This document shows positions 1,414 to 19,443 of a stretch of 64,000 bases of DNA, one piece after another (position 1 is the first letter of the stretch; each line of letters begins with the position of its first letter). The notes under the pieces are model-generated. The model was not told the origin of the DNA, made no database searches, and was given only the letters and a program-made list of their open reading frames with translations. A program made the translations under genes and the position numbers. The DNA lies in assembly GCA_030673845.1 (NCBI GenBank), contig JAUTCQ010000009.1, positions 1-64,000 of the forward strand, read 5' to 3'. Origin of the DNA: Verrucomicrobiota bacterium JB022 (GTDB lineage: Bacteria; Verrucomicrobiota; Verrucomicrobiia; Opitutales; Oceanipulchritudinaceae).

Positions 1414-1421
1414 TCATTCAT
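1391..1421. repeat. CATT tetranucleotide tract (7 units, one degenerate)
   Basis: Four CATT, one CGTT, then two more CATT and a partial unit. On the minus strand this is a TGAA/ATGA tract beginning at the stop codon of the SMI1/KNR4-like gene. Because TGA recurs in every frame within the tract, a gain or loss of units would change only the last residues. Confidence 0.85.
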
Positions 1422-2007
1422 AGACTCCTCGCATCCGCTGACGCCAGTAGGTCGAATTAGGATTAAGCTCCGCAGAAACCCTGTCTATAACACCTCTGCA
1501 ACCAGCCCTCACGACTAAACCACCATCCTCATTTTCATAAACACCCTCCTCAATCAGATTTATAATAGTAACAAACATACTTTCAATAGAATCATACCGT
1601 GAAACATCGCTTCTTGAATAACTAGAACAACGATAAACGGGAGCGAATTCAACCTCGTCCTTATGAATTGGAACACAATAACAATCACCGCCAAAATCGA
1701 TTAGTAATTCAAACATTTTAGTCTGCCAATGACTTTCAGCATCCCTTTCGAATACATTCATAGATCTTTCAAAGGGTTGGAAGAAAAAACCTGGTAACAT
1801 ACACGCATTCTCACCGACCCAATCATCTGAAATGCCGTTTTTATAAAGATATAGATCTTTCAGCTCCTTAGGTAAGCTCCACCCCCGAGAACTAAAATCC
1901 TCTAGCATATCAGACCGCACCGGAACAGCTTCCTCAAGCGCATCAGCTATTGAAAAACCTGCACGCTTATACGTATGAATAAGCAATTGAAATGTATGAT
2001 TTATCAT
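1414..2007 (-). CDS. SMI1/KNR4-family protein, putative immunity to the DNase tip
   Basis: A 197-residue cytosolic protein with no signal peptide. The central part (WSLPKELKDLYLYKNGISDDW, read in two pieces: WSLPKELKDLY and KNGISDDW) matches the SMI1/KNR4 pattern of 'P.el..ly..nG'. Members of this superfamily are common immunity proteins beside polymorphic toxins. It starts 8 nt after the stop of the nuclease-tip gene (ATG at 2007); an alternative TTG at 2019 would overlap that stop as TTGA. Base composition is AT-richer than the chromosomal genes, matching the toxin tip. The likely role, neutralising the upstream NucA/NucB-like nuclease, is inferred from position and family. Confidence 0.8.
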   Translation of the reverse strand: MINHTFQLLIHTYKRAGFSIADALEEAVPVRSDMLEDFSSRGWSLPKELKDLYLYKNGISDDWVGENACMLPGFFFQPFERSMNVFERDAESHWQTKMFELLIDFGGDCYCVPIHKDEVEFAPVYRCSSYSRSDVSRYDSIESMFVTIINLIEEGVYENEDGGLVVRAGCRGVIDRVSAELNPNSTYWRQRMRGVYE

Positions 2008-2015
2008 AGATCTAA

Positions 2016-3389
2016 TCAAGGAACTACCAACACATCAAAGCAATCACCAAGCTTCATGTTATATTCAGCGAAGAAACGACTCAAGTCTCCCCCGTGCAAC
2101 TGATTTTGGCTACGATCCACCAGCGAAGACACCGCACCCAAGCCTCCCTCAATAGTAGCGGCATATGGATATTCGTGCCAGTCGAAGTCTCCATACTGCC
2201 TTGCGCCTTTGTACCATTGCCTGACTCGCCGCTGAGCCAAAGATCTATTCCTATCTCTAAAATCTTCCCACTCCGCAGTATTCCTTGGGCCCACATGCAG
2301 GCGCTTGGGCAACCCCAACACTTGAGCACTCAAATCATGTGCAGCAACCTCAGCATAGCGGCTTGCGCTTACATAGAAATCCGGGCAATCACCTGAATCA
2401 CGTTTCCTCAACCTCGTCAAAACTGACCGCGGACTACTATGTGGATCAGATGCCATCGCGACTTTTATGCGTTCTTCCTGTTTAGAATCCAGTCCATCCG
2501 GAACAAGTCGCCGTATTTCGGTAATAACCTGAGACGCGACTGCACTTTGGTAACTACTATAAGCCTGCATTCCAGCAACCGCATAAATTCCAAGGGTTAC
2601 CTGCATCGTTACGGCTACTTTAACGCCTTGTCCAGCTAGGGAATATTCTTGAAACATCCCACTCGGATCGATCCCTACCACCGGGTTCGCGTGCGCATAG
2701 AGGTATTTGTGCAGCGTCTGCGGGTCGGAGCGCGAACCTTCGTAGGTGTCCAGCGTGTGGAAGCGGCCGGTTTCGGGGTTGAGGTAACGGGCGCGCAGGA
2801 AGTACATCCCGAGGTCCGCGTCCCATTGCTCGCCGGTGTAGAGGTAGGCGTTGAGGGTCCCGCGGCCGGTGGCGCTCAAGAGGAGGCCGAAGGCGTCGTA
2901 GCTGTAGGCGTCCGTCACCAGGCCCGCTTCGTCGGCGAGGGCGCGCACGGTCCCGAGGCCGTCGTAGAGGTAATACGACGTTTCCCAGGCGTTGGAGCGC
3001 AGCTGCGTCTGGCTGATAAGGTCGTGCCCGTAGGCATACACCTTCTCGACAGTCAAAGAACCGGTAAAGTCTTCGACCAACTCTTCTAACACCTGGCTGT
3101 AGCCCGTCAAGTTGTTGCGGTCCACCAGGTAGTAAGTCGTGGCGCCCCCGACCCTCTTCGCAAAGCGGTCGCCGTAGACATCATACGACACATCAATGAC
3201 TTCCCCACTGCCGGCGGTGCGGCGGATCAGCTTGTTGCGGTAGTCGTAGACGTCCGTGCCTGCGGGACTCAGCGTCGTGTTGCCGTTGAAATCGTAGGCA
3301 TCACGCGTCAGCCAGTCGTTCGCGCTGTAACCAAAGGTCTGCGCCCCTACCCCGGACAGCGACGAGGCACGCGTCAGGCGGTTGCCCAC
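2016..3389 (-). CDS. Displaced Rhs tip module 3: Rhs core fragment plus NucA/NucB-like DNase toxin
   Basis: A 457-residue open frame without signal peptide. Residues 1-245 are the end of the Rhs shell and core (GEQWDADLGMYFLRARYLNP, then GRFHTL and DPSGMF), nearly identical to the main Rhs gene. After DPSGMF the sequence is unique. Its last ~70 residues (DWHEYPYAATIEGG, then RSQNQLHGGDLSRFF and GDCFDVLVV) match the NucA/NucB deoxyribonuclease pattern of 'EYP.a...eGG ... n..gG..l..f'. Upstream the core copy continues to about 3535 but has an in-frame TAG at 3474-3476 and no N-terminus, so on its own the gene probably cannot be exported. It probably acts as a reservoir that replaces the tip of the intact gene by recombination through the shared core. 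A putative SMI1-type immunity gene follows. Confidence 0.82.
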   Translation of the reverse strand: MGNRLTRASSLSGVGAQTFGYSANDWLTRDAYDFNGNTTLSPAGTDVYDYRNKLIRRTAGSGEVIDVSYDVYGDRFAKRVGGATTYYLVDRNNLTGYSQVLEELVEDFTGSLTVEKVYAYGHDLISQTQLRSNAWETSYYLYDGLGTVRALADEAGLVTDAYSYDAFGLLLSATGRGTLNAYLYTGEQWDADLGMYFLRARYLNPETGRFHTLDTYEGSRSDPQTLHKYLYAHANPVVGIDPSGMFQEYSLAGQGVKVAVTMQVTLGIYAVAGMQAYSSYQSAVASQVITEIRRLVPDGLDSKQEERIKVAMASDPHSSPRSVLTRLRKRDSGDCPDFYVSASRYAEVAAHDLSAQVLGLPKRLHVGPRNTAEWEDFRDRNRSLAQRRVRQWYKGARQYGDFDWHEYPYAATIEGGLGAVSSLVDRSQNQLHGGDLSRFFAEYNMKLGDCFDVLVVP

Positions 3390-3994: not shown

Positions 3995-4309
3995 CTATCT
4001 TTCCATTATTGAAAATACAGAATACCATCCCGCAGTAAAACCTACCCACGATAAATCGAGAATAAACGAATATGAAGCCATCTCCCCAACCACAAATCCA
4101 GCAACAAAAACTATCACATTTACAATCGAAACAAGTGCTGCCACGCGTGGGGCAAAATTCATTCTTTCTTCATTTTTCAAACGTCTATAGCGGACAATGA
4201 ACAGCACCAGACCTATCCAGCATAGACAATGCGTCACCATCAAGCTGCCGCTTAGCGCAAACGAAAGATAGGGACAAAAAGAAACAAATAAAAGCAACCA
4301 TAATCTCAT
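3995..4309 (-). CDS. Small four-helix membrane protein, putative immunity protein of module 2
   Basis: 104 residues from the ATG at 4309 (MRLWLLLF). A TTG at 4318 would add three residues and overlap the toxin stop as TTGA. Four hydrophobic segments are visible at about 3-20, 24-41, 57-77 and 81-100, with a short basic-acidic loop RYRRLKNEERMN between the second and third. It follows the unknown tip gene with coupling distance typical of toxin-immunity pairs. An integral membrane immunity protein would fit a tip that acts on or crosses the inner membrane; that is inference, as no family is recognised. Confidence 0.6.
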   Translation of the reverse strand: MRLWLLLFVSFCPYLSFALSGSLMVTHCLCWIGLVLFIVRYRRLKNEERMNFAPRVAALVSIVNVIVFVAGFVVGEMASYSFILDLSWVGFTAGWYSVFSIMER

Positions 4310-4314
4310 AGGTT

Positions 4315-5265
4315 TCAATAATTAAAACTCCTGACATAGTCGATAAATTTCTCAGGATCCTCCAGCGCTGTGGCATACCTGTTAAAATCATTTATTAAGC
4401 CCCCAAATTCGTCAATGGTATCGCATACATTGACCGCGCCACGAAACGATAGCACGCCTATTCCAATTGGGCTATTTCCAGCTTTCCCTCCTTGAAACAC
4501 TGAGAAACTTGCAGCAACTCCATCACTCGTCATCGAGGGGGTAATACTTATCCGGGCCTCAATACCGCTTCGCTGAATTGCCATCGCCACCGTACGAAGC
4601 GATTCGACGACTTGTTCAGGAATTACGGATTTTAATCCGATGAGCGCAACTCGAAGCGCACCAGCAGAGAAATAAGAGGTAAATCCACTAAAGCCAAACC
4701 CACTTGAAACCCCTTTGCCCCAAATCATCCCAAACATGGATTCAAGACCCTTAGGTTTAGGCATTACTTTTCCAGGAGCGGAAAAAAACGACACGGTTGC
4801 TCCTCCTGCTACGGAAAGATATAAATCAGCTTTATCCCACAATGCGATCCCTCCCAAAGAAAGGGCGTATCCCACGCCCATCGAAGTGGAGCCTCCTATA
4901 CGACCTCTTACTCCTCCAAAATAAACATCAGGATTGTGCCAGCCATGCTGAATTACTCTGTTCAGCCCTACTGCGCCTACAGTAACGCTTGCCATTGTCC
5001 CAATTACGGCAGCTACAACGATCCGTTCCGCCAACGTAAACATCCCGCTCGGATCCACGCCCATCACCGGATTCGCGTGCGCATATAGGTACTTGTGCAG
5101 CGTTTGCGGGTCGGAGCGCGAACCTTCGTAGGTGTCCAGCGTGTGGAAGCGGCCCGTGTCGGGGTTGAGGTAGCGGGCGCGCAGGAAGTACATCCCGAGG
5201 TCCGCGTCCCATTGCTCGCCGGTGTAGAGGTAGGCGTTGAGGGTCCCGCGGCCGGTGGCGCTCAA
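4315..5265 (-). CDS. Displaced Rhs tip module 2: Rhs core end plus unrecognised glycine-rich toxin
   Basis: A 316-residue open frame. Residues 1-75 are Rhs core (GEQWDADLGMYFLRARY to DPSGMF) and are followed by about 240 unique residues. The tip starts with a hydrophobic helix (ERIVVAAVIGTMASVTVGAV), has glycine-rich stretches (GGVRGRIGGSTSMGVGYALS, VSSGFGFSGFTSYFS) and ends DPEKFIDYVRSFNY. No nuclease or other catalytic motif is recognised; the glycine/serine-rich amphipathic pattern could suit a membrane-active protein. The frame is cut off from the rest of its core copy by a one-base insertion at about 5272, so it is an orphan tip. It probably serves as a donor for recombination into the intact Rhs gene. 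The putative immunity gene follows at once. Confidence 0.68.
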   Translation of the reverse strand: MSATGRGTLNAYLYTGEQWDADLGMYFLRARYLNPDTGRFHTLDTYEGSRSDPQTLHKYLYAHANPVMGVDPSGMFTLAERIVVAAVIGTMASVTVGAVGLNRVIQHGWHNPDVYFGGVRGRIGGSTSMGVGYALSLGGIALWDKADLYLSVAGGATVSFFSAPGKVMPKPKGLESMFGMIWGKGVSSGFGFSGFTSYFSAGALRVALIGLKSVIPEQVVESLRTVAMAIQRSGIEARISITPSMTSDGVAASFSVFQGGKAGNSPIGIGVLSFRGAVNVCDTIDEFGGLINDFNRYATALEDPEKFIDYVRSFNY

Positions 5266-5781
5266 GAGGAGCGCCGAAGGCGTCGTAGCTATAGGCGTCC
5301 GTCACCAGGCCCGCTTAGTCGGCGAGGGCGCGCACGGTCCCGAGGCCGTCGTAGAGGTAATACGACGTTTCCCAGGCGTTGGAGCGCAGCTGTGTCTGAC
5401 TGATCAGGTCGTGCCCGAAGGCATACACCTTCTCGACAGTCAAAGAACCGGTAAAGTCTTCGACCAACTCTTCTAACACCTGGCTGTAGCCCGTCAAGTT
5501 GTTGCGGTCCACCAGGTAGTAAGTCGTGGCGTCACCGACCGTTTTCGCAAAGCGGTCGCCGTAGTCATCATACGACACATCAATGACTTCCCCGCTTCCG
5601 GTAGTGCGGCGGATCAGCTTGTTGCGGTAGTCGTAGACGTCCGTGCCTGCCGGGCTGAGCGTCGTGTTGCCGTTGAAATCGTAGGCATCACGCGTCAGCC
5701 AGTCGTTCGCGCTGTAACCAAAGGTCTGCGCCCCCACTCCGGCCAGCGACGAGGCACGGGTCAGACGGTTGCCCACGGGTT
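5039..5781 (-). repeat. Rhs core duplication, copy 2
   Basis: A second copy of the Rhs core, from the DPSGMF codons at 5039 to an abrupt end near 5781, just after the MGNRLTR codons. It is the shortest of the three copies. It shares the QLRSNAWETS variant with copy 3 and not with the main gene. Confidence 0.9.
5315..5781 (-). pseudogene. Broken Rhs core fragment upstream of tip module 2
   Basis: The reading frame beginning at MGNRLTRASSLAGVGAQ (5776) matches the main Rhs core but ends at a TAA at 5315-5317, where the intact gene has GAA (LADEAG). A one-base insertion near 5272 then shifts the frame before tip module 2. No start region or export signal remains. These lesions lie in the part that is redundant with the main gene, and the tip itself stays open, as expected if only the tip is under selection. 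Confidence 0.85.
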
Positions 5782-5889: not shown

Positions 5890-6231
5890 TTAGCCCGTGG
5901 GTTCATTTTGACTTAACCGCTGTATTAGCTTACTAAAGATTTCAACTAAAACAGGATCTGCTTTTTCAGCTTCCAGAAGCAATGCATAGTTAAACATTCG
6001 GAGCCGAGGGTTGCACTCTCGATATACTCCATAGCCGAATCTCCCTTCCTTATAAGTGCGACATTTCACCGAAATCGCTGATTCAGAATACTCAACAGTT
6101 AAAGTTCGCATCCGCTGGTTACTGGCATGCTCAATAATACTCAATCTAGAAACGCCGTCATTTTCTGAGACGACGCAAACCCTAATTTTGCTACTCCCGC
6201 GCGAAATGCGGCAATCAGCTATAAGTTGCAT
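5890..6231 (-). CDS. Putative immunity protein for the main Rhs tip
   Basis: 113 residues, cytosolic, ATG 3 nt after the TAA of the giant Rhs gene. It starts MQLIADCRISRGSSKIRVCV and ends KLIQRLSQNEPTG. The first half is predicted beta-rich and the last third helical (YALLLEAEKADPVLVEIFSK). No family is recognised. Position directly after the variable tip, small size and AT-rich composition are the reasons for calling it the cognate immunity protein. Confidence 0.6.
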   Translation of the reverse strand: MQLIADCRISRGSSKIRVCVVSENDGVSRLSIIEHASNQRMRTLTVEYSESAISVKCRTYKEGRFGYGVYRECNPRLRMFNYALLLEAEKADPVLVEIFSKLIQRLSQNEPTG

Positions 6232-6234
6232 ACG

Positions 6235-9200
6235 TTACTTAAGTTGGCTTCCATTTGGATACAAATAAAAGCTCTTATTGGGATAAAATCTAGTCCATTC
6301 CAGCTCGGATAGGTAGTAACCTGGAAGAAAACTTGAAGAATTTCTGCTGGATCTTGAAGTATCAAATCCTATGTCATAAATAAGACAACCCCGCGACATA
6401 ATATTCTCGATCCAAGCGAAGTTAGCAATTTCCATCGCTCCTAAATCACTCCTGCCTCCAGGTGCCCATAATGGCGACATCGGACGTAATTCAGCTAACT
6501 CCTGCAAAAATTGATCTCCCTCCTCATCCCAGATGAATGCCTCAGCTTGAAACATTGGTGTGGATGCGTTCGAGATCGCGTGAGCAACGCGTTTCCAATT
6601 TTCTCCAATTACGGCCTTACAATCACCCTTTTTACTGCGAATCCGCTGAGCCTGAGAGACTGAAACCGTGCCAGATTTCGTCTCCATCACTTCTTTCCGC
6701 ATATCAAGCGGTATCGTTACACTGGAAGGAGGCGCTTCAACCTCATCTGGCCACACATTAATAGACGGCCAAGGCACAGAAATGGCTGCCGTTTCCATAT
6801 GAAGCATGTATGTGAGCGCCACTACCCCCAGCAGGGCGAGGCCAACCGAGGCTGAAGAAAGTGAATACGCCTGAGCAAACATCCCACTCGGATCCACCCC
6901 CATCACCGGATTCCCGTGTGCATACAAATACTTGTGCAGCGTTTGCGGGTCGGAGCGGAAGCCTTCGTAGGTGTCCAGGGTGTGGAAGCGGCCGGTTTCG
7001 GGGTTGAGGTAGCGCGCACGCAGGAAGTACATCCCGAGGTCCGCGTCCCATTGCTCGCCGGTGTAGAGGTAGGCGTTGGGGGTGCCGTGGCCGGTGGCGC
7101 TCAAGAGGAGGCCGAAGGCGTCGTAGGTGTAGGCATCCGTCACCAGGCCCGCTTCGTCGACGAGGGCGCGCACCGTGCCGAGGCCGTCGTAGAGGTAATA
7201 CGACGTTTCCCAGTGATCCGGAGCCCCCTGCGGTAGCAGCTGCGTCTGGCTGATCAGATCATGCCCGTAGGCATACACCTTCTGGACAGTCAAAGAACCG
7301 GTAAAGTCTTCGACCAACTCTTCTAACACTTGGCTGTAGCCCGTCAAGTTGTTGCGGTCCACCAGGTAGTAAGTCGTGGCGTCACCGACCGTTTTCGCAA
7401 AGCGGTCGCCGTAGACATCATACGACACATCAATGACTTCCCCGCTTCCGGTAGTGCGGCGGATCAGCTTGTTGCGGTAGTCGTAGACGTCCGTGCCTGC
7501 GGGACTCAGCGTCGTGTTGCCGTTGAAATCGTAGGCATCACGCGTCAGCCAGTCGTTCGCGCTATAACCAAAGGTCTGCGCCCCCACCCCGGCCAGCGAC
7601 GAGGCACGCGTCAGGCGGTTGCCCACGTCATCGTAGGTGTAGCTCACACTGCCGTTATTGCCGTGGGGATCGTCCGCCACCGTTTCGCGCTGCAGCCGAT
7701 AAAGCTGGTCGTAGACATAGTCGACCACCCGACCGCTCGTCTCGGTTTGCCGCGTGCGCATCCCGCCGCGACTGAGCGTATACGCATAACTATTGTAGGT
7801 GCGCCCGTCCGTGTGACTGATATCCAGATTGGTAAGGCGGTAAAGTGAGCCGTAGCTCCAGACATGCGTGATGTCGTTGGCATACGTCATCGCAGCTAGG
7901 TTGCCCACCTCGTCATAAGCGTAACTGTGCGCCAACGGCGGTTGCTGCGCCCCGTGATCATAAACTTGCGCCAGTCGACCCAGCTCATCGTAGTCATAGG
8001 CGAGTTGAACGCCATTCGCATTATTCGAAGCGACGCCCGTCAACTGCCCCGCGGGGTTGTAGCTATAAGTGAGCGTGCCTTCAGCCGACTGCTTTGAGAT
8101 GAGGTGGCCTTGCGCATCATAAGCATAAATCTCACGGTGCAGAACTTCGTCCAGGTAGTTGTAAGTCGCGGCAGAAGTCAACTGCCCGGTGCCATCATAG
8201 GTATATTCCAGCTTGGCCGTAGCATGGGCATAGATCAGCGACGGGTGCGAAGGGTCAGCCTCCTCCGTCACCAGACGATCCATTCCATCATAGGTGTAGG
8301 TGGTGGTGTAGCCGTTGAAATCGGTGCGGGTGGTCAAGGCGCCATTCAGATGATAGGTATAGTGCTCCACCTGCCCCTCCGGCAGGGCACGCCAGGTGCG
8401 GCGGCCCATCACGTCATAACCATAGCGTGTGGTGTGCCCTTCCGCATCGGTCTGGGCAGTCACGTTGCCCGCCTCGTCATAGGCATAAGTGGTAACCGGT
8501 CGATCGCCCCCAGCCTCCGGGGCGGGTTGCGTCACCGTCAGCAAGCGCCCCAGCGCGTCGTAGCCGTAGTCGGTGCGCTTGCCCTTCTGATCGATCGAGG
8601 CGACGCGGCGCCCCAAGGTATCGTAGACCGTCTCCGTCGTCGTTCCGTCCGCATATGTGGTCACCGTCGGGCGGCTGAGCGCGTCGTAAGTCGTTGAAGT
8701 GGTGCGGCCGAGGGCATCTTCCACCGCGACCTGGTTGCCCGCCGCGTCGAAGAAGCTCTTCGTCACGCGCCCCAAAGCGTCCGTCACCGCGCCGCGACGG
8801 CCCGAGCAACCGCACTGATCGTCGTAGGTATAAAAGGTCGCATGGCCCAGCGCATCCACGCTCGTCTCCACCCGACCCAATGCGTCGTAGTCGTTGCTGG
8901 TAAAGGGGTTGTCCTGCAGCTCGGGGGCCGCGAGGACCGCCTCAACATTCCTCAACGCTGCCGGATCGGCCGGCATCGTCTCGTCGGGCAAGATGGTGCG
9001 CACCACCCGGCCCAGCGCGTCGTAGATGTAGTAGGTGGTGCGCCCAGCGCGATCGGTGCGCGAAAGGGAGCGACCTTCCGCATCGTAGACCGTGGAATCG
9101 AAGCGGCCGTCGGCGTAGGTCGTCTGGATCAGATTGCCACGCGCGTCGTAGGCGTAGGTCGTGGGGCGGCCCAGCTGGTCGATCGTCCGCGCCTGCTTGC

Positions 9201-12200
9201 CAATCGCATTGTATTCGACGCGGGAAGTGGTGCCGTCGGCATAAGTCGTCTGCACCACGCGGTCGTTCCGATCGTAGGCATACTGCGTCGTCGCCGTTTC
9301 TACTTCCAAGGCCGTGCCGGTGGCGTCGTAAACGGTGCGCTGCTGCGTCTGGCTCGTCTGATTGCCGCGGCTGTCATATGTATAGCTGCTGACCCGCAGG
9401 ACATTGCCGTTGGCGTCGCGCAGCTCCGTCCGCGTGGTGTTGCCCAGAGAGTCGTATTCGTGAGCCGTCGTATTACCCGCCCCATCTGTCATACTCGTGA
9501 GGTCGCCGCGGGCATTGTAGGCAAAGGCGGTCACATTACCCGACGCGTCTTCCATGCGCGTGAGATTGCCAGCGGCGTCATATGCAAACTCCGTCACGTT
9601 GCCATTCGGGTCTTCGATGGTCAGCGGGTTGCTGTTCGCATCGTAGGTGTAGGTTGTCGTGGCAACGGCCACTTCGCCCTCCGCGTTGGTGAAGTATTGC
9701 GTTTCGCTCAGCACGTTGTTGCGTGCGTCGTAGGTGCGCTCGGTCACGTTGCCCAGCGGGTCCTCTTCTCGCGTCACATTGCCGCGCACATCGTAATCCA
9801 TCCGCGTTGTCAGCCCTGGTCCTTCCAGGTTCTCGGGATCGACGGTGGTGGTCGCGACCACATTGCCCTCGAAGTCGTATTCGTGCACCGTCTCGAAGCC
9901 CAGACGGTCCACGATCACTTCCTTGCGCGTCGGAATGTCGTGCTCGAGCGTGATCGGGAAGCCTTCCGCATCCACCTGCCCGATCACCCGCCCCTGCTCG
10001 TCATATTCGGTGCGGATCGCCCGTACCCCACGAGGGTCGATGACCTCCGTCAGGTAATACGGGAAGGCGGCGTTTTCATAGCGATATTCGGTAAAGGTGC
10101 CATACAGCGGGCTCTCCGGGTCGTTGCCTTCGCGGTCGGTGAACTTCACCAGACGCCCCTCGGTGTCGTAGTCGTAGGCCAATGCGTTTCCGTCCGGGTC
10201 TTCGATCCGCGTGATCCGACCAGCACCGTCGCGGGTGAACGCAATCGAACGCCCACTGCTGTGGAAGACGCCATCCTCCGTAATCCTGAGCGTGTTCTGG
10301 TTGCGGTCCGTTACCTTACGCAGGCCCAAGACCTCCGCAATCTCCAACCGCGTGCCATCCAGGGCCGTGTAGACATATGCCTCCGGATCCAGCACCCCCG
10401 CCCCAAAGTCATCGATCTGGTAGATCCCGTCGCCGTCGTCGTCGACCAGCGGGAAGCTTGGATTGGCGGCAGTCAGTGCCAGAGAGCCGACCGAGCCATG
10501 AATGGGCCGAAAACGCAGCACAGCCGCCGTCGGTTGCGGGCCGATGACGGTACCCTGAGGCTCGGTGTAGGCTTCGAACTGCTCCACCTGCCCATCTCCC
10601 AGCACCACAGTCACAATTGCCGGACGGACGGGCCGGAAAACCCACCTCCCGGACAGGCCGCTGCTCGTGGCATCCAGATACCACTCGGAGCCGAGAGCGT
10701 GGTTTTCATAGACCTGAACCGCTCGGAGCCCCAGATCCCAGCCACGACCGAAATCTCCCTGCAGCTCACCACGGCTGTCGTAGCTACGCAGTATCTGCAC
10801 AGGGATGCCACTCACCGGCAACTGCAAATCCTCAAATGCTAATGCGAAATGGCCCACCTTCATCTGAGAGTCGACCACCACGGATTGCGCCACCTTGTAG
10901 GAGCGCCCGAGAACGTCCACCGCCCGCAGTTGAACCTCGTAGATACCATTGCGAAGCATCGTCGGGTCAAATGTGCCGAGCACCCCCGCAGTCACTTCTT
11001 GAGTGCCGGTTGCAAAGACGGTCCACTCGCTGGTGCCCTTAAGCCGGTGTGCCAGCGTATACTGCTCCAGCAGCGCACTGGTGACGGTGCCCACCACCGC
11101 TGTCGGCGCCGTCACAATAGAGTCCGCAGCGGGAGAAGTGAGTTCCGCAAAGGGCGGTGCATTATCGTCTGAAACATAAAGAGTAATGCCCATCGGGTCG
11201 CTGGCGAAGCCGGAATCGTCGGTAGCGACCGCCGTCAAATGACTTACGGGTGCGAGCACTTCGTTGTCTGGAAGCGATAATGTGAACGTGTCCCCACCGG
11301 CGGCACTTGCAAAACCAAGAGACTGGCCGTCGGCGAATAACTCGACTTGCGCAATCGTCCCGTCGGCGTCCGTGGCTCGCACCATTAGGGTCAGGGGTAG
11401 TCCTGGCTTCAGCACGGCCTCGTCTGTTGGCGAGAGCCAAGCCACCTCCGGGCCATGCACGACCTCAATCGTCACATAATCGAGGCTGTAGAGCTCGCCG
11501 TCGGACACATAAAATTGAAGCACATAGGTGCCCGCTTTTGAAAAGTAAGCTTGGACTTCTGGCCCCTGCGGCAGCTCGATTTCCACTGGCGCAGGACCCG
11601 AAATAAAGAGCCACTTTGCCGTAATCCAACCGCCCAAGGGCAGGCCGTCGTCGGCCACCTGGCCCACCAGACGCGCGCCCGCCTGCAGCGTTACCTTTTG
11701 ATCCGGACCAGCATCGATTTGCGGAGGCTGGTTGGGCAGCGGTTCGACGATAATGGTAACTTCATCAATCCCGGTCAAATCGCCGTCAGAGGCCGACAAC
11801 GCGAGAACGTAGGTGCCCTCAGTATCAAAACTCACTTGGGTGGCAATAGCGTTGGGTTGGGTGATCGAAACATTGCCTGGCCCGCTCACGAGCGACCATT
11901 GTGCCGTCAGAGTCGCCGGCAGGGGCAACCCATCGTCGCTGACCGAACCCTCAAGCGTCACTTGAGCATGCAGCGCCACCGTGCGGTCCGCTCCGGCATC
12001 GACAACAGGAGCCGTATTGGCAGGCAGGCGGTAGGATACCGTAACGCTGTCGCTCCCCTGAAGCTCGGAATCGTCTGCCGTGAGGGTAAAGGTATAGTCG
12101 CCAGGCACAGAAAAAACGACCTCCGTATCGAGAGCAGAGGGATCAATTATTGCGGCCCCCTGCGCAGGTTCCACGGTCCAACCAGTGGAAACCCCTCCTC

Positions 12201-15200
12201 CCTCTGGAAGACCATCGTCAGCAAAGACTCCGTGTAGCCAGATGCGATCCTGAGGCCAAGTGACGACCGAAGAATCGCCAGCATCTACAAAAGGAGCAAG
12301 ATTCGTAGGTATAGGCGGACAACGCCCTGCCCCACGGGCCGCGTAAATAGACTGTATCTCGCTGCCGGACAGAGCTCGGCTATAGATTGCCAGTTCGTCA
12401 ATTCGGCCGGCCAGAGTGCGTGTGTCAAAAGCTCCAAAGATCAGCGTTTCTGCCACTTCCAACAACATGCTCCCGTCGATCCGGTGGTAAACTTGAATGC
12501 CGTCGAGATACAGAGTGACACTGCTTTCGCTCTGATCCAAGACCACCGAAATATGATGCCACTCAGTGCCAAGGCTGGAGCCGACATAAAATGTGGTATA
12601 GCCTGATACGGTAGGATACGTGCAGTAGATTCTCGCGCCATTATAGTCCGAAAGCAGGCCGACATTGCCCCAACGGAAGAGGCCATCAACCCCTGCCCCG
12701 TCACGTTTAAACCAGAATTCTACTGTCAAGGCACCGGCGTGCTCAACTTGAGCAGCCGCCTCGCCAGAGCTGACCAAAAACGATTGTCCTCCCTGAAAGC
12801 CAAACCCATTGAGATAAATGCCCGCGTCGTGGCCTGCCAGATTTTGGCTCCGGGCTTCAAGGTTACCCTTCCGATCAAAATCGCTATTTCCATCCCAGAA
12901 CGCGACTAGACCTTCAGGAGAATCAACCGAGCACGGCTCATCGATACGAACACTTATGAATTTAGTTACAGAAGCCAAACCGTCGTTTGCCGTTAGTTGC
13001 AGAAGATAACTACCGGCCCGCGCAAAAGAAGCCGTCGAAGCCGCTAATCTAACGTCTTTGAACGCAACCAGTCCGGATGGCTCCTCACCATTGGCGATTG
13101 GCCCCATCAACACCTTCCACTCCGTAACGACATCCCCGCCCGGTAATCCATCGTCCGACACGCTAGCCCCGAGTCCTATTGATTCACCAACTGAGCCCGC
13201 AAGTGGATCCTGGGTTATATCGATCAGAGGAGCTTCATTTAAAAATCCCACCGGGCACCTACCGGATCCACCTGCTTTGTAAAGTGCTCCGATCTCAGCG
13301 GCATCCAGTGCGCGACTATAGATGGCGAATTCATCAAGCTCTCCGTTTAGTCGTCTATGGTCGTATGCCCCTACCAAAAGCGTCTCGGAAAGACGCGTTC
13401 GCAAATCCGGGTTTGCCAGTGTGTAAACTTGCTTCCCGTCCACGAAAGCCCGCAATCTTTGCTCTGGTTCACTGAGGACAACAGCCATGTGATGCCAGTC
13501 GGTGCCCAATGCAACTCCTGCGTAAGGTGAAGAGGATCCGCCTGCAACAGGATAGGTAAAGTATAGCCGCGCCCCGTTATAATCAGACAATACCCCAAAA
13601 TCTCCCCAACGAAACAGACCGTCCGTTCCTGCACCGCTCCTTCGCATCCAAAACTCGACAGTAACTTCGCCGGTTTCAGCAATACTTTCCAGCAGGGCAC
13701 CTACATCCGCTTCAAGTTCCTGACCATTGGCAAAGTGAAACCCAGTGGTATAAATGCCTGGCATGAAGGCCAGCGGAGCAACAACATCAAGCTCTATGGC
13801 ACCAAGCTGATCCCAGCGACGAGTCCCATCCCAGAAAGCGATGAGATCTGGAGGTGAGTCAAATGTGCATAAATCATCAACCCGGACCGTAACCTCATCC
13901 CTTCCTGAAGCTAACCCATCGGACACTTCCAACTGCAGCCGATATGTGCCGGGACGGGTGAAATTTACTTGGGGATCCAGCACATTCCTATCACTAAAAG
14001 ATACCAGTTCGCGGGGATCTTCAACTCCTGTAGAATTAGGGGCTTCAAGAACGTCCCATTCCATCCACAACTGGTTCAGCGGAGCACCATCGTCGCTTAC
14101 ATCACCATTCAGCGGCAGCGGATCTCCAACAGTCGTTACCATTAGATCTTCCTCTATCGTCACCATCGGTGCACTATTTGGCAGATATACCGGGCAGCGC
14201 CCCATACCCTTACCTTGATAAAGCGACACAATCTCCGCTCCTGTTAAGACACGGTCATAGATGGCAAATTCATCCAGCGACCCCGTCATTCTGCGGTGAT
14301 CATAGCCGCCTAGCCGCAAAACATCGGATAGCATAAGATTGAGGTTGGCATTCACGACTTTGAAGATGCGAACCCCATCAAGATAAACCTCAAACGAATG
14401 ATCTTCCTTCTTGAGGAGAAACGCCACATGGTGCCATTCCATCCCCAGTGCGACCGATACGTAGGGGGTAGCAATCCCGGTTGTTGTGGGGTAGGCGCAA
14501 TAAAATCTGCTTCCGCTGTAATCTGAGAGTGCACCCAAATCCCCCCACCGGAAGATGCCATCAACGCCTGCCCCGGCTCGTTTAAACCAAAACTCGACGG
14601 TAACCTCCTCACTTTCGGCGATCTGCTCCGCAAGATGCGGAACTCTCGCCTCAAGCTCTTGCCTGGAATCGAAGGAGAATCCTCCCAAGAACTTACCTTC
14701 TGAATAGTGGCCACATTCGCCACCGTCCAAAGGAACATCACCAATCAAATCATGGTACCCATCATTGCCATCCCAAAAGGCGATCAGACCGGAAGGAGAG
14801 GGTTCGCAGTCTTCCGAAATCCTGATTTCCTGCCGCTGGCGGGCTACAGCTATTCCGTCGGACACCTCGAGCTCCAACAGGTAAACACCTTGGCGTAAAA
14901 AGGTCGCACGCGTGCCCGGCGATGTGGGCTCATCAACAAGAACGAGATCATCTGGAGACTCTTCCCCGGTGGTCGGAGCGCTCAAGACATGCCAGAAATA
15001 CGTAAGATTTTCACTGGACTCATCAGGATCAGAAGCCGCCGCCTCTATCCAAACCACAGTATCATAAAAGTCGGCCGCGCTTAATAAAATAGGATCCAAC
15101 GGCTCAATCAAGGGAGGTCGGTTCAATATTTCGACGGTAAACTCCTGAATGGAAAATTCATCATTTCGGTCTAGCACCATAATGGATACAGGTACGAATG

Positions 15201-18200
15201 CCGGCGTATCTCCTGTCACCTTGAAAGTCAAAAGGCCCGTCTTCGAATCCAAGACCGCGTCCGAAGGCCCGCTTAAAAGTGTAAATATATGCTCGTAAGG
15301 TATGGCGTCTACGTCTTCAACTACCGGGAAGTAGCGGAATTCATCCGACAAGCATTCCCCTTCCACACCAAACGCGAAGGGAGGCCTGCTCAAGAAACGA
15401 GGACGCGTCTCAAGCGGAAGTGCTACAACTATACCAAACTCTTGCTGAGATCGCCCCCCATTGTCATCTCTGACTTCAATGACCACCTTGAAAGCGCCTT
15501 GGCTTTCGGGTGACCAGGAGATCATCCCGCTCTGTGCGTCGATCATCATCCCTACAGGATGCTCAATGAGGTGATAGGTCAGAAAATCACCATCTTCATC
15601 ACTCGCTTGGACACGATGTTGATAGTGAGGCGGCGGCACCAGTTCAAGGCTGGTGGTAAGGAAGAAGTTGGAGCCACAGCAGTAACGCTCAGCGAAAAAG
15701 ATGTCGAAATCGTAGGTTTTACCGACGGTCAGTCCCAATGTGTCGAGGTCTACATTGCCCTCGACTGGGCCATGCACGCCTCCCAGATCGACCACGAGTT
15801 TACGGTCTATAAAGACCCAAACGTCATCGTCCCCTCTAAACGAGAACTGTTCGCCTCCACGATAGGTAAAGGTGCTATGGCCTGTCATCGTGAAATAGCG
15901 GTTTAGCTCAGTTGAACCGAAATCGAGCAAGCGTGACGTCAAAGGAAAGAATTGGCTGCTCTGGAACTCGTAGATGCCAGAACCCGGAATCTTTTCCGCT
16001 AGGAACAGGGGCATCCGCGCAGTTTCATTTACTCCAGGCACATCATGAAACCATTGGTAAAAGCTATCCTCACTCTGTATCGCGTTCTGACTGATCGCAG
16101 TATTCAATACCGGCGTTCCATCGTCTCCCAAGGCATCCATAACCAGATTCTTTACCCACCCTGAGAGCGTCCATTGCATGTCGGGGTGCGAGCTAGTAAA
16201 GTCCCGAAATGTTGCCAAGATATAAGCACCTTTCTCCTCGGAGACCTCGACAGCTGTAATGGGAGTCGAGGTGAAAAACGGATCATGGTTGATGTGCCGG
16301 ACCGTAATCACAATTGTAGCTACCACCGAAGCTTCCCCGTCTGAAATCAGGATTTCAAACCCGTCAGTGCCCGAAAAACCCGGCAAAGGATCGTATCGGA
16401 AATCGGCTCCCGCGATGAAAGTAATGATCCCTCTCTCAGGAGCTGATCTAACCGTGAATGTGAGGTGATCGCCATCGACGTCATGCGCCGGAATCGTTCC
16501 CAACAGCGACTGGTCCTCATCCGTTTCGAGGAAAAGATCTTCCGCCACCGGCGCATCGTTTCGAGGCTCAACCTCGATCGTCACCTTCGCACTGGAAGAC
16601 GTCTGCCCGTCGGAGACGGAAAATGTAAAGCTGTCGGGCCCGAAGTAGTCGGTCGTTGGCGTGTAGTGAAAGCTGCCATCGCTTACCAGCCCAAGACTCC
16701 CATGCTGCACGTCGGAAACAAGTGCGAATGAAAGTGCGTCGCCGTCGACATCGGTGGCCGAAAGCAAACCGCTCAGTACAGTATCTTCTGGCGTCGTGTA
16801 AGTAGCCGCGATGGCGTGGGGCGCGTCATTGACCGGGGCAACGGTCACAACCACTTGCGCTTGAGCCGACAATTCACCGTCCGAAACTGCGACGCGAAAG
16901 GAATCGAGCCCGTTGAAATTGACCCTAGGCTCGTAGCGGAAGCTGCCGTCCATAGCGACAATTGCCGCACCGAATGACGGACCATCGACCAAAGAAAAAC
17001 GCAACTCGTCTCCATCCACATCTGTTGCTGTCAAGTGGCCTACCACTGCAACATCTTCGATCGTCTCCAGCGCTGAGTCTGCCATGATGGGCACGTCATT
17101 CACCGCCTCTACCTCGATCGAAACGATGGCAGTAGCGACGTATTCACCATCTGACACCTGATAGATGAAGGTGTCTTTACCGTTGAAGTTAAGAGGCGGC
17201 GTATAAGTGAAGCCACCTTCTGCCTGGATCACGACCTGACCGTAAGCAGGGCCGCTGACCAAGGTGTAGGTCAAGGCATCACCATCTGCATCCTGCCCTG
17301 CAAGCTGCCCAGCCAGAGCCGTATCCTCTGGCGTGGTGAATGCGAGATCCTGCGCTACCGGAACGTCGTTAACGGCAGCGACGGTAATGACCGCAACAGC
17401 ACGCCCGGAGAGCGCACCATCGGAGACCGAGAAGACGAATGTATCGGAACCGTGGAAGCCAGGCGGAGGCTCATAGACGAAGCTGCCATCTGTTTGTAGA
17501 CGCAATCTGCCGTGCGCAGGCGCTTCCACCATCTCGAAAGCAAGATCGTCACCATCCGGGTCGAAGGCGACGAGCAACGCGGCCAAAGGCGCTCCCTCGG
17601 CAGTTTGGAAAGCCTGGTCTGAGACTACCGGCGTCTGGTTTTCTGGCTCTGGCCCTACGGAACCATTCAAAGGAGCCAATACATCGATACGGCCACTGCT
17701 ATTGAGGGTCAGACGATCGACGGCAAAATTCCCTCTCAGACGTCCGTTAACCATCAGATGGCGATCAGGAGCAATCACGATGGCGTAGGCGGTGCAGCCC
17801 GTGTTCAGCGTCACGTCTCCCCGAGCCTCCAGGCGCACCCAAGCCGGGTTTGCAGAGCTTCCTACTTTGCCGTTGATCGTCAGCGAGTCGCGCAGGCGGA
17901 TGACCACCGGCCCAGCAACCTCGAGCTGGCTGTTGCCGTTCAGCGTCAGGCTCTCGAAGGAATAGACCTCCGGCGTTTCGGCACCGGTGGTTCCCAGGAC
18001 GAGGCCGCTTCCGGCATTGACGGTAAAGCGCCCGTAACGGCCTGCGGGAAGGGGCTTGAGGCCGACGTTCGAATTCAAGTTGAGATCACGCAGCGTCAAA
18101 GGGTCGCCAAACAGATCGGAGGGTGTGTTGAGCGTTACTTGGCGCGTCCCGCTCGGCGGAGTCCAATCCCCCACCCTCGGCAGTTCCGTGGCGTCCGTCC

Positions 18201-19392
18201 TCGTGACGATGTGTTGCAGCGTCGCGCCGCTATTCAGGTAGAGCGTATGGCCACTGGGGCTGGCCGCGCCCGCTCCCGGGGCCACACCAGCGAAAGTAGG
18301 CGTGCCATTTTGCACGATGGTAGGATCCCCTGGCAGATACCAATCACCCTCCACCTGCGCTCCCCCGTTTACACTGCCGCCTTCGGGCAGCATTTGCTGG
18401 AGATCCCCCGAAAGACGCCCATTCAGCGTGGGAAAATGCCTCACCTGCGCACGAACGGTCGCGTCGAGGTTACCGTCGTCTTGAAATGCATCTGGAGTGA
18501 GTTCGCTCGGAGTCGGGACCGGCTCTGGAAAAACTGCAAGCGGCGCTTGATCAATGCGCGCGCCTGAATTGAGCGTGAGCCATTTGGCAACAACGGGGCC
18601 TACGATGCGGCTGCGATCATTGAGCGTCAGACGCTGGTTCACCACCCGCACCTCGCCAAAGACCTCGGCTCCCGTGTTTAACGTAAGCCCGCCTTCGACA
18701 ATCTCCAGTCGTAGAAGATCAGGCCGGGCGGCGTCGCCCACCACCCCTTGCATGCTGGTCCAATTCTTGATCCGGAGGTCGACCGGCCCCGCCACGGCAA
18801 TGGCCCCGCCCGCGTTTAATAAGAGGTTTTCGACATAATAGACAGCTGGCTCGGACGCACCAGCAACTCCCAGGACCAGTGCGCTGCCGGCGTTGATGCT
18901 CCAACTACCGTAGCTCCCGGCTGGTAAGGCGTGAGAGCCCGCACCTTGATTGAGCGTCAGACCTTTGATGCTCGCAGCCTCTCCCAACGCGTCACTCGGG
19001 AGACTCAAGGTGATCCAACGTGATCCTGCAGGCGGCAAATACGTTGCCGCAGCAGGCCAGACGGGCGGATTGGAATTAATTTTCAGCGTCGCAAGTGTGC
19101 TTCCATGGTTCAGCGTTACTACCGACCCGATTGGCTCACCTACACTACCCCCTTCGACGATTTGACCTAGCTTACCACCCTGCGTTACGATAGATGGAGA
19201 GCCAACGACATACAAATCACCCGATATTTCAGCTCCAGAATTCAGGATCACGCTTTCGGGATGAACCTGAAGTACATTTCCTTCAATAACGCCGTTCAAC
19301 TCAATATTCTTATAGACAAGAACTTGGGCTTCCAGGCACACTCCAAAAATGGCACAAAGCAGCGCCATCCACGCGACAGGGAGGATTTTCAT
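6235..19392 (-). CDS. Giant Sec-exported Rhs/YD-repeat polymorphic toxin
   Basis: About 4,385 residues from the ATG at 19392, which gives a clean signal peptide (MKILPVAWMALLCAIFGV...LEA); an ATG at 19443 would add 17 residues in front. In order, counting from 19443: two copies of a ~270-residue polymer-forming-like repeat rich in LTLNSGA (40-590); five cadherin-like repeats of the NDVPVAQDL...DGDALTY...FNGKDTF type (600-1050); a fibro-slime/PA14-like domain (1080-1266, with FRGDDDVWVFIDRKLVVDLG); a cadherin-like pair; three LamG-like modules each starting GLIAFWDG and ending GRCP (1544-1750, 1858-2064, 2169-2376); PKD and Ig-like repeats (to 2860); the YD shell; the Rhs core ending DPSGMF (4188); and a 214-residue tip with no recognised family. 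The shell is expected to enclose the tip; the front half looks adhesive. Export is by Sec, not a type VI spike. Confidence 0.9.
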   Translation of the reverse strand: MKILPVAWMALLCAIFGVCLEAQVLVYKNIELNGVIEGNVLQVHPESVILNSGAEISGDLYVVGSPSIVTQGGKLGQIVEGGSVGEPIGSVVTLNHGSTLATLKINSNPPVWPAAATYLPPAGSRWITLSLPSDALGEAASIKGLTLNQGAGSHALPAGSYGSWSINAGSALVLGVAGASEPAVYYVENLLLNAGGAIAVAGPVDLRIKNWTSMQGVVGDAARPDLLRLEIVEGGLTLNTGAEVFGEVRVVNQRLTLNDRSRIVGPVVAKWLTLNSGARIDQAPLAVFPEPVPTPSELTPDAFQDDGNLDATVRAQVRHFPTLNGRLSGDLQQMLPEGGSVNGGAQVEGDWYLPGDPTIVQNGTPTFAGVAPGAGAASPSGHTLYLNSGATLQHIVTRTDATELPRVGDWTPPSGTRQVTLNTPSDLFGDPLTLRDLNLNSNVGLKPLPAGRYGRFTVNAGSGLVLGTTGAETPEVYSFESLTLNGNSQLEVAGPVVIRLRDSLTINGKVGSSANPAWVRLEARGDVTLNTGCTAYAIVIAPDRHLMVNGRLRGNFAVDRLTLNSSGRIDVLAPLNGSVGPEPENQTPVVSDQAFQTAEGAPLAALLVAFDPDGDDLAFEMVEAPAHGRLRLQTDGSFVYEPPPGFHGSDTFVFSVSDGALSGRAVAVITVAAVNDVPVAQDLAFTTPEDTALAGQLAGQDADGDALTYTLVSGPAYGQVVIQAEGGFTYTPPLNFNGKDTFIYQVSDGEYVATAIVSIEVEAVNDVPIMADSALETIEDVAVVGHLTATDVDGDELRFSLVDGPSFGAAIVAMDGSFRYEPRVNFNGLDSFRVAVSDGELSAQAQVVVTVAPVNDAPHAIAATYTTPEDTVLSGLLSATDVDGDALSFALVSDVQHGSLGLVSDGSFHYTPTTDYFGPDSFTFSVSDGQTSSSAKVTIEVEPRNDAPVAEDLFLETDEDQSLLGTIPAHDVDGDHLTFTVRSAPERGIITFIAGADFRYDPLPGFSGTDGFEILISDGEASVVATIVITVRHINHDPFFTSTPITAVEVSEEKGAYILATFRDFTSSHPDMQWTLSGWVKNLVMDALGDDGTPVLNTAISQNAIQSEDSFYQWFHDVPGVNETARMPLFLAEKIPGSGIYEFQSSQFFPLTSRLLDFGSTELNRYFTMTGHSTFTYRGGEQFSFRGDDDVWVFIDRKLVVDLGGVHGPVEGNVDLDTLGLTVGKTYDFDIFFAERYCCGSNFFLTTSLELVPPPHYQHRVQASDEDGDFLTYHLIEHPVGMMIDAQSGMISWSPESQGAFKVVIEVRDDNGGRSQQEFGIVVALPLETRPRFLSRPPFAFGVEGECLSDEFRYFPVVEDVDAIPYEHIFTLLSGPSDAVLDSKTGLLTFKVTGDTPAFVPVSIMVLDRNDEFSIQEFTVEILNRPPLIEPLDPILLSAADFYDTVVWIEAAASDPDESSENLTYFWHVLSAPTTGEESPDDLVLVDEPTSPGTRATFLRQGVYLLELEVSDGIAVARQRQEIRISEDCEPSPSGLIAFWDGNDGYHDLIGDVPLDGGECGHYSEGKFLGGFSFDSRQELEARVPHLAEQIAESEEVTVEFWFKRAGAGVDGIFRWGDLGALSDYSGSRFYCAYPTTTGIATPYVSVALGMEWHHVAFLLKKEDHSFEVYLDGVRIFKVVNANLNLMLSDVLRLGGYDHRRMTGSLDEFAIYDRVLTGAEIVSLYQGKGMGRCPVYLPNSAPMVTIEEDLMVTTVGDPLPLNGDVSDDGAPLNQLWMEWDVLEAPNSTGVEDPRELVSFSDRNVLDPQVNFTRPGTYRLQLEVSDGLASGRDEVTVRVDDLCTFDSPPDLIAFWDGTRRWDQLGAIELDVVAPLAFMPGIYTTGFHFANGQELEADVGALLESIAETGEVTVEFWMRRSGAGTDGLFRWGDFGVLSDYNGARLYFTYPVAGGSSSPYAGVALGTDWHHMAVVLSEPEQRLRAFVDGKQVYTLANPDLRTRLSETLLVGAYDHRRLNGELDEFAIYSRALDAAEIGALYKAGGSGRCPVGFLNEAPLIDITQDPLAGSVGESIGLGASVSDDGLPGGDVVTEWKVLMGPIANGEEPSGLVAFKDVRLAASTASFARAGSYLLQLTANDGLASVTKFISVRIDEPCSVDSPEGLVAFWDGNSDFDRKGNLEARSQNLAGHDAGIYLNGFGFQGGQSFLVSSGEAAAQVEHAGALTVEFWFKRDGAGVDGLFRWGNVGLLSDYNGARIYCTYPTVSGYTTFYVGSSLGTEWHHISVVLDQSESSVTLYLDGIQVYHRIDGSMLLEVAETLIFGAFDTRTLAGRIDELAIYSRALSGSEIQSIYAARGAGRCPPIPTNLAPFVDAGDSSVVTWPQDRIWLHGVFADDGLPEGGGVSTGWTVEPAQGAAIIDPSALDTEVVFSVPGDYTFTLTADDSELQGSDSVTVSYRLPANTAPVVDAGADRTVALHAQVTLEGSVSDDGLPLPATLTAQWSLVSGPGNVSITQPNAIATQVSFDTEGTYVLALSASDGDLTGIDEVTIIVEPLPNQPPQIDAGPDQKVTLQAGARLVGQVADDGLPLGGWITAKWLFISGPAPVEIELPQGPEVQAYFSKAGTYVLQFYVSDGELYSLDYVTIEVVHGPEVAWLSPTDEAVLKPGLPLTLMVRATDADGTIAQVELFADGQSLGFASAAGGDTFTLSLPDNEVLAPVSHLTAVATDDSGFASDPMGITLYVSDDNAPPFAELTSPAADSIVTAPTAVVGTVTSALLEQYTLAHRLKGTSEWTVFATGTQEVTAGVLGTFDPTMLRNGIYEVQLRAVDVLGRSYKVAQSVVVDSQMKVGHFALAFEDLQLPVSGIPVQILRSYDSRGELQGDFGRGWDLGLRAVQVYENHALGSEWYLDATSSGLSGRWVFRPVRPAIVTVVLGDGQVEQFEAYTEPQGTVIGPQPTAAVLRFRPIHGSVGSLALTAANPSFPLVDDDGDGIYQIDDFGAGVLDPEAYVYTALDGTRLEIAEVLGLRKVTDRNQNTLRITEDGVFHSSGRSIAFTRDGAGRITRIEDPDGNALAYDYDTEGRLVKFTDREGNDPESPLYGTFTEYRYENAAFPYYLTEVIDPRGVRAIRTEYDEQGRVIGQVDAEGFPITLEHDIPTRKEVIVDRLGFETVHEYDFEGNVVATTTVDPENLEGPGLTTRMDYDVRGNVTREEDPLGNVTERTYDARNNVLSETQYFTNAEGEVAVATTTYTYDANSNPLTIEDPNGNVTEFAYDAAGNLTRMEDASGNVTAFAYNARGDLTSMTDGAGNTTAHEYDSLGNTTRTELRDANGNVLRVSSYTYDSRGNQTSQTQQRTVYDATGTALEVETATTQYAYDRNDRVVQTTYADGTTSRVEYNAIGKQARTIDQLGRPTTYAYDARGNLIQTTYADGRFDSTVYDAEGRSLSRTDRAGRTTYYIYDALGRVVRTILPDETMPADPAALRNVEAVLAAPELQDNPFTSNDYDALGRVETSVDALGHATFYTYDDQCGCSGRRGAVTDALGRVTKSFFDAAGNQVAVEDALGRTTSTTYDALSRPTVTTYADGTTTETVYDTLGRRVASIDQKGKRTDYGYDALGRLLTVTQPAPEAGGDRPVTTYAYDEAGNVTAQTDAEGHTTRYGYDVMGRRTWRALPEGQVEHYTYHLNGALTTRTDFNGYTTTYTYDGMDRLVTEEADPSHPSLIYAHATAKLEYTYDGTGQLTSAATYNYLDEVLHREIYAYDAQGHLISKQSAEGTLTYSYNPAGQLTGVASNNANGVQLAYDYDELGRLAQVYDHGAQQPPLAHSYAYDEVGNLAAMTYANDITHVWSYGSLYRLTNLDISHTDGRTYNSYAYTLSRGGMRTRQTETSGRVVDYVYDQLYRLQRETVADDPHGNNGSVSYTYDDVGNRLTRASSLAGVGAQTFGYSANDWLTRDAYDFNGNTTLSPAGTDVYDYRNKLIRRTTGSGEVIDVSYDVYGDRFAKTVGDATTYYLVDRNNLTGYSQVLEELVEDFTGSLTVQKVYAYGHDLISQTQLLPQGAPDHWETSYYLYDGLGTVRALVDEAGLVTDAYTYDAFGLLLSATGHGTPNAYLYTGEQWDADLGMYFLRARYLNPETGRFHTLDTYEGFRSDPQTLHKYLYAHGNPVMGVDPSGMFAQAYSLSSASVGLALLGVVALTYMLHMETAAISVPWPSINVWPDEVEAPPSSVTIPLDMRKEVMETKSGTVSVSQAQRIRSKKGDCKAVIGENWKRVAHAISNASTPMFQAEAFIWDEEGDQFLQELAELRPMSPLWAPGGRSDLGAMEIANFAWIENIMSRGCLIYDIGFDTSRSSRNSSSFLPGYYLSELEWTRFYPNKSFYLYPNGSQLK
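6878..7765 (-). repeat. Rhs core, main copy shared with copies 2 and 3
   Basis: The part of the giant gene that is repeated at 2652-3535 and 5039-5781. It extends from the DPSGMF codons back through GRFHTLDTYEG, GEQWDADLGMYF and NRLTRASSLAGVG to RQTETSGRVVDYVYDQ. In this copy the frame is open throughout. It supplies the homology through which a displaced tip could replace the present one. Confidence 0.9.
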
Positions 19393-19443
19393 AGGATCGG
19401 GAAGTAAGCAGCAGAAAAACGATCTAAACGACCAAGGCTGCAT

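Follow-up and report, generated by a model that had tools for sequence, protein, structure and literature searches.

We analysed a window of 64,000 nucleotides at the start of contig JAUTCQ010000009.1 of Verrucomicrobiota bacterium JB022 (assembly GCA_030673845.1, 25 contigs), and found on its minus strand a full-length Rhs gene followed by two orphan Rhs-CT/immunity cassettes, the first of which is the subject of this study. The main Rhs gene (6235..19443) encodes a protein of 4402 aa with an apparent signal peptide, Big_9/cadherin-like repeats, PA14, three LamG domains, PKD and RHS repeats, and its C-terminus consists of the core motif DPSGMF followed by a tip of its own. Behind this gene lie, in order, its putative immunity gene (5890..6231, no known family), the cassette studied here and the second cassette. 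The tip (215 aa) and putative immunity protein (113 aa) of the main Rhs form a second unrecognised toxin/immunity pair (5890-6882), for which no convincing family was found, a match to AGOG DNA glycosylase (E 9e-4) falling below the cut-off. At the end of the orphan array, an IS4/5-family transposase is present at 279-1060 in two overlapping frames (DUF4096 and DDE_Tnp_1).

The open reading frame of the first cassette (5265..4315, minus strand) begins within an Rhs core, the last 76 codons of which (5265..5038, Rhs_assc_core, E 1.9e-15) end in NPVMGVDPSGMF, and continues for 240 residues to a TGA stop at 4317-4315. Counted from the MF of the motif, the Gly-rich tip spans 4318..5043. Of 20,000 order-1 Markov sequences with matching composition, only 1 was free of stops across the 242 codons of the tip, and the open frame is therefore not due to chance. 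The adjoining gene (3995..4318) encodes a protein of 107 aa with four predicted membrane helices, and its TTG start overlaps the TGA of the tip (ATTGA), with an AGGAG 9 nt upstream; its frame of 107 codons remained open in 32 of 20,000 such sequences. An earlier note on this DNA had read the 240 residues as a toxin tip, a position borne out by their place directly after the Rhs core motif, and had described a small polytopic membrane partner coupled to the stop codon, which the four predicted helices, the TTG/TGA overlap and the AGGAG support.

The three Rhs cores of the locus are 90–95% identical to one another; the core of the first cassette matches the main core with 92.6% identity over 753 bp and the second orphan core with 95% identity over 739 bp. 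This homology stops exactly at DPSGMF, with no blastn or blastp match among the three tips, and the three immunity proteins are likewise without detectable similarity to each other. The GC content is 62% in the core, 47% in the tip and 40% in the small immunity gene. Differences between the cores are mostly third-position and synonymous, indicating that the orphan core descended from a selected coding sequence.

The reading frame of this core is nonetheless broken, by an in-frame stop (5317-5315) at which its upstream part (5315..5776) ends and by a one-base frame shift near 5272, and the last 76 codons are read in a different frame from the upstream core, continuous with the tip. Core and tip are therefore not one open reading frame, and with only a broken, partial core in front of it, the tip is an orphan rather than the C-terminus of a complete Rhs protein. 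Both lesions could be assembly errors within a near-repeat. The earlier note missed this context: a full-length Rhs gene lies nearby, and the tip belongs to an orphan cassette whose own core is broken.

The anatomy of orphan rhs-CT/rhsI modules has been described by Poole et al. 2011 (PMC3150448), and we found all three features of that layout here: the position, the end of homology at a DPxGL-type motif and the untranslatable core. As in those modules, a displaced pair of tip and immunity gene lies downstream of the main rhs gene, the reading frame is broken or lacks a start, and the partial core is of high identity, with 753 bp at 92.6% in the present case compared to the 522-bp, 95% identical core through which recombination activates the orphan Rhs of Salmonella LT2 (Koskiniemi et al. 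2014, PMC3967940). In contrast to those modules, the host is not an enterobacterium and both the tip and immunity families are new; furthermore, instead of a PAAR-Rhs of the T6SS, the main gene encodes a giant, adhesin-like protein with a signal peptide (Big_9, cadherin, LamG, PKD). We regard the locus as almost certainly a stored (orphan) Rhs-CT/immunity cassette.

The orphan toxin tip is probably silent, and given its orphan status the pair may be decaying. In the stronger form of this explanation, the tip no longer works and the immunity gene alone, if anything, is kept against neighbours. The stop and frame shift in the core are consistent with such decay, as are the lack of a promoter clearly standing out from background (8 found, 5.8 expected) and the finding of Poole et al. 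(PMC3150448) that, of an orphan pair, the immunity protein is produced but the toxin is not. However, tip and small gene are still open, the coupling and the ribosome-binding site are intact, and orphan toxins of EC93 and Dickeya work despite having no start signal (PMC3150448). In addition, more than 220 bp separate the tip from the lesions upstream of it, about 230 bp of intact core homology adjoin the tip, and recombination in this remaining homology would therefore exclude the lesions. We consider it unlikely that the cassette is defunct.

Next to this cassette, the second orphan (2016..3389) combines a partial Rhs core with a NucA/NucB DNase tip (E 2.6e-11), and is followed by a SUKH-1 (SMI1/KNR4)-like immunity gene (1414..2019, E 5e-4, below the Pfam gathering score). 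This pairing of DNase and SUKH has been catalogued by Zhang et al. 2012 (PMC3482391), and since the second orphan is a recognisable pair of this kind, the array stores ordinary toxin/immunity pairs.

No such identity was obtained for the first cassette, as neither the tip nor the small protein has a match in Pfam, NCBIfam or PADLOC. The profile searches of both proteins, a check that the earlier note had proposed, yield no family, and the claim that the residues after DPSGMF match nothing known holds in every library searched. In the PDB, matches of the tip to antibody light chains and MJ1338 (E 0.08-1) were judged to be chance, and no Rhs protein is among the matches at E up to 1. Matches in PHROGs (27-32 residues, best E 0.0046) cover only single hydrophobic stretches and are chance-like.

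We found no homologue of the tip by tblastn of plasmids and phages or by back-translated scans of viral and species-level genome contigs. With HMMER, in overlapping samples of 387 phylum, 17 family, 322 order and 384 class genomes, the tip found only itself and weak matches that were dismissed on inspection. One near-threshold match (L015) is antisense to genes reading as triosephosphate isomerase and phosphoglycerate kinase, and the genes neighbouring another (L019) are without Rhs. A third (L029; E 4.7e-4 for one genome of 384) falls in the last part of a LamG-type domain, with the sequence NGLIDEF...ALSDPEI, which the tip segment GGLINDFNRYATALEDPEKF resembles; as Pfam Laminin_G_3 does not match the tip, we treated this resemblance as chance. 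The small protein has no credible homologue in plasmids, phages, viral and species-level contigs or the sampled phylum, class and order genomes; its matches (L020-L028) fall on hydrophobic segments of other proteins or of frames that do not code, and no Rhs motifs occur in their vicinity. Accordingly, within the limited reach of these searches, we found neither of the two observations that the earlier note had named as contradicting its reading, namely a small protein widespread without the tip or a tip matching a known soluble enzyme. Tip and small protein are a new sequence pair at a locus of a well-known type. What the analysis shows is how the cassette is built, that its core is broken and retains recombination-ready homology, that the two genes are coupled and that neither product belongs to a known family.

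The composition of the tip is rich in glycine (14.5%; Gly+Ser 24%) and hydrophobic overall, with the highest GRAVY of the three tips at the locus (0.38, the others being -0.13 and -0.42). In 19-residue windows the only strong hydrophobic segment is residues 1-28 (peak 2.10), in agreement with the N-terminal helix of the earlier note, and a weaker one covers residues 116-147 (peak 1.27). Residues 39-86 and 157-199 contain amphipathic strands, with a strand-period hydrophobic moment of up to 2.0. The single-sequence fold model of the tip is unusable (pLDDT 35). The hydrophobic moment and this weak model tentatively divide the tip into an N-terminal helix, strands in a Gly-rich region (39-86), a helix at about 127-159, a set of two or three strands (160-199) and amphipathic helices towards the C-terminus. 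GxxxG motifs are no more frequent than expected by chance (5 found, 4.8 expected, p 0.54), and we therefore rejected an identity as a glycine-zipper toxin such as EsxX or Cdz. Looser small-xxx-small-xxx-small triples are enriched (18 found, 8.8 expected, p 0.005), an enrichment that may merely reflect clustered Gly, Ala and Ser.

We compared the start of the tip with those of its neighbours, because the earlier note had taken the hydrophobic helix as a sign of action at the membrane. The 19-mer peaks at the same place are 1.45 in the DNase tip and 1.79 in the main tip, and 1.42 in the tip of an Rhs protein from another genus of the same family (L005). With the other tips, DNase included, also starting hydrophobic, the N-terminal helix is not evidence of membrane action; a hydrophobic start is usual for tips on the shared core and says little about the target. 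The Rhs core of L005 is 66% identical, lies in a giant frame of 4347 codons and carries a tip starting FTISEVTVTNAIVG, which suggests that tips may be exchanged on a shared core.

These hydrophobic starts, as an apparently general feature of the tips on this core, also count in favour of the possibility that the tip is a cytoplasmic or periplasmic enzyme, acting for instance on lipids, cell-wall precursors or a nucleotide. In that case the hydrophobic helix would only aid translocation, while the four-helix protein would block entry or shield a membrane-side substrate. Residues 143-240, the C-terminal third, may form a small soluble alpha/beta domain according to a low-confidence model. Moreover, membrane-bound immunity proteins may block the entry rather than the activity of a toxin, as suggested by Zhang et al. 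for Imm-CdiI and the two-helix Imm17 (PMC3482391). The Gly-rich and hydrophobic composition of the tip argues against an enzyme, and so does the absence of any match to an enzyme family in NCBIfam, the PDB or, at E up to 10, Pfam. We regard an enzymatic tip as possible and less favoured.

The small protein probably protects against the tip and is thus a putative immunity protein. Its model comprises four helices (2-21, 24-49, 55-81 and 84-106; mean pLDDT 64), and K/R-rich segments are found at the N-terminus and in the central loop, a charge distribution that suggests a topology with both ends cytoplasmic (N-in/C-in). Immunity proteins are usually located at the site of action of their toxin (PMC12669606), and for this reason we lean towards a toxin that acts at or in the inner membrane. 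The predicted membrane location of the immunity protein is the only real argument for such action; counting against it, the tip has just one strong membrane helix. The further proposal of the earlier note, a new immunity family, stands in so far as no known family was matched, while a single sequence without a homologue cannot show a family.

Several known pairs offer precedents. The Rhs pore-former Tse5 of P. aeruginosa is blocked by Tsi5, an inner-membrane protein with two predicted helices (PMC9637101, PMC10684867). Like Tse5 and Tsi5, the present pair combines an Rhs tip devoid of an enzyme signature with a predicted integral membrane immunity protein. There is, however, no detectable sequence relation and no PDB match although a Tse5 structure is published; the small protein has four predicted helices compared to two in Tsi5, and Tse5-CT, with 149 residues, has several membrane or amphipathic helices. 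The small protein shares its predicted helix number and its predicted topology with Sip4, a four-helix N-in/C-in protein that confers immunity to the pore-former Ssp4 of the Serratia T6SS (PMC12669606); however, the two are connected by no library or structure match, and Ssp4 does not form part of an Rhs protein. Other small membrane-helix immunity proteins of polymorphic toxins are Imm-CdiI and Imm17; in contrast to Imm17, which has two helices and a defined motif, the small protein has four and belongs to no Pfam or NCBIfam family.

The best explanation overall, which we hold with modest confidence, is that of a stored pair whose toxin probably acts at the inner membrane and can be put to use once recombined into the main gene. 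That the tip is toxic, targets the membrane, is neutralised by the small protein and reaches the main gene by recombination is inferred from precedents. Under this hypothesis, the tip would be the toxic C-terminal domain of an Rhs protein, either a former one or a donor. Its cassette would be stored downstream of the main Rhs gene, and recombination between the homologous cores would join the tip to this gene whenever it is used. The fused tip would be enclosed by the RHS shell and released through aspartyl self-cleavage at the DPxG motif (DPSGMF), as in Rhs1 (PMC8636562). Once free, it would insert into the competitor's cytoplasmic membrane or act there, probably depolarising it, while the coupled four-helix protein would sit in the membrane of the producer and block the toxin. 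It is conceivable, at low probability, that the Gly-rich amphipathic strands after the membrane helix form a beta-type inner-membrane pore with a four-helix immunity family of its own; if true, this would be a new Rhs toxin family.

Collectively, the polymorphic-toxin repertoire gains a toxin/immunity pair that has no recognisable relatives. The orphan-cassette layout, for which enterobacteria have so far been the best-studied hosts, is found here on a giant signal-peptide, adhesin-like Rhs, and the picture of Rhs locus evolution is unchanged. Should the toxin act at the inner membrane, it would join a small number of Rhs pore-formers.
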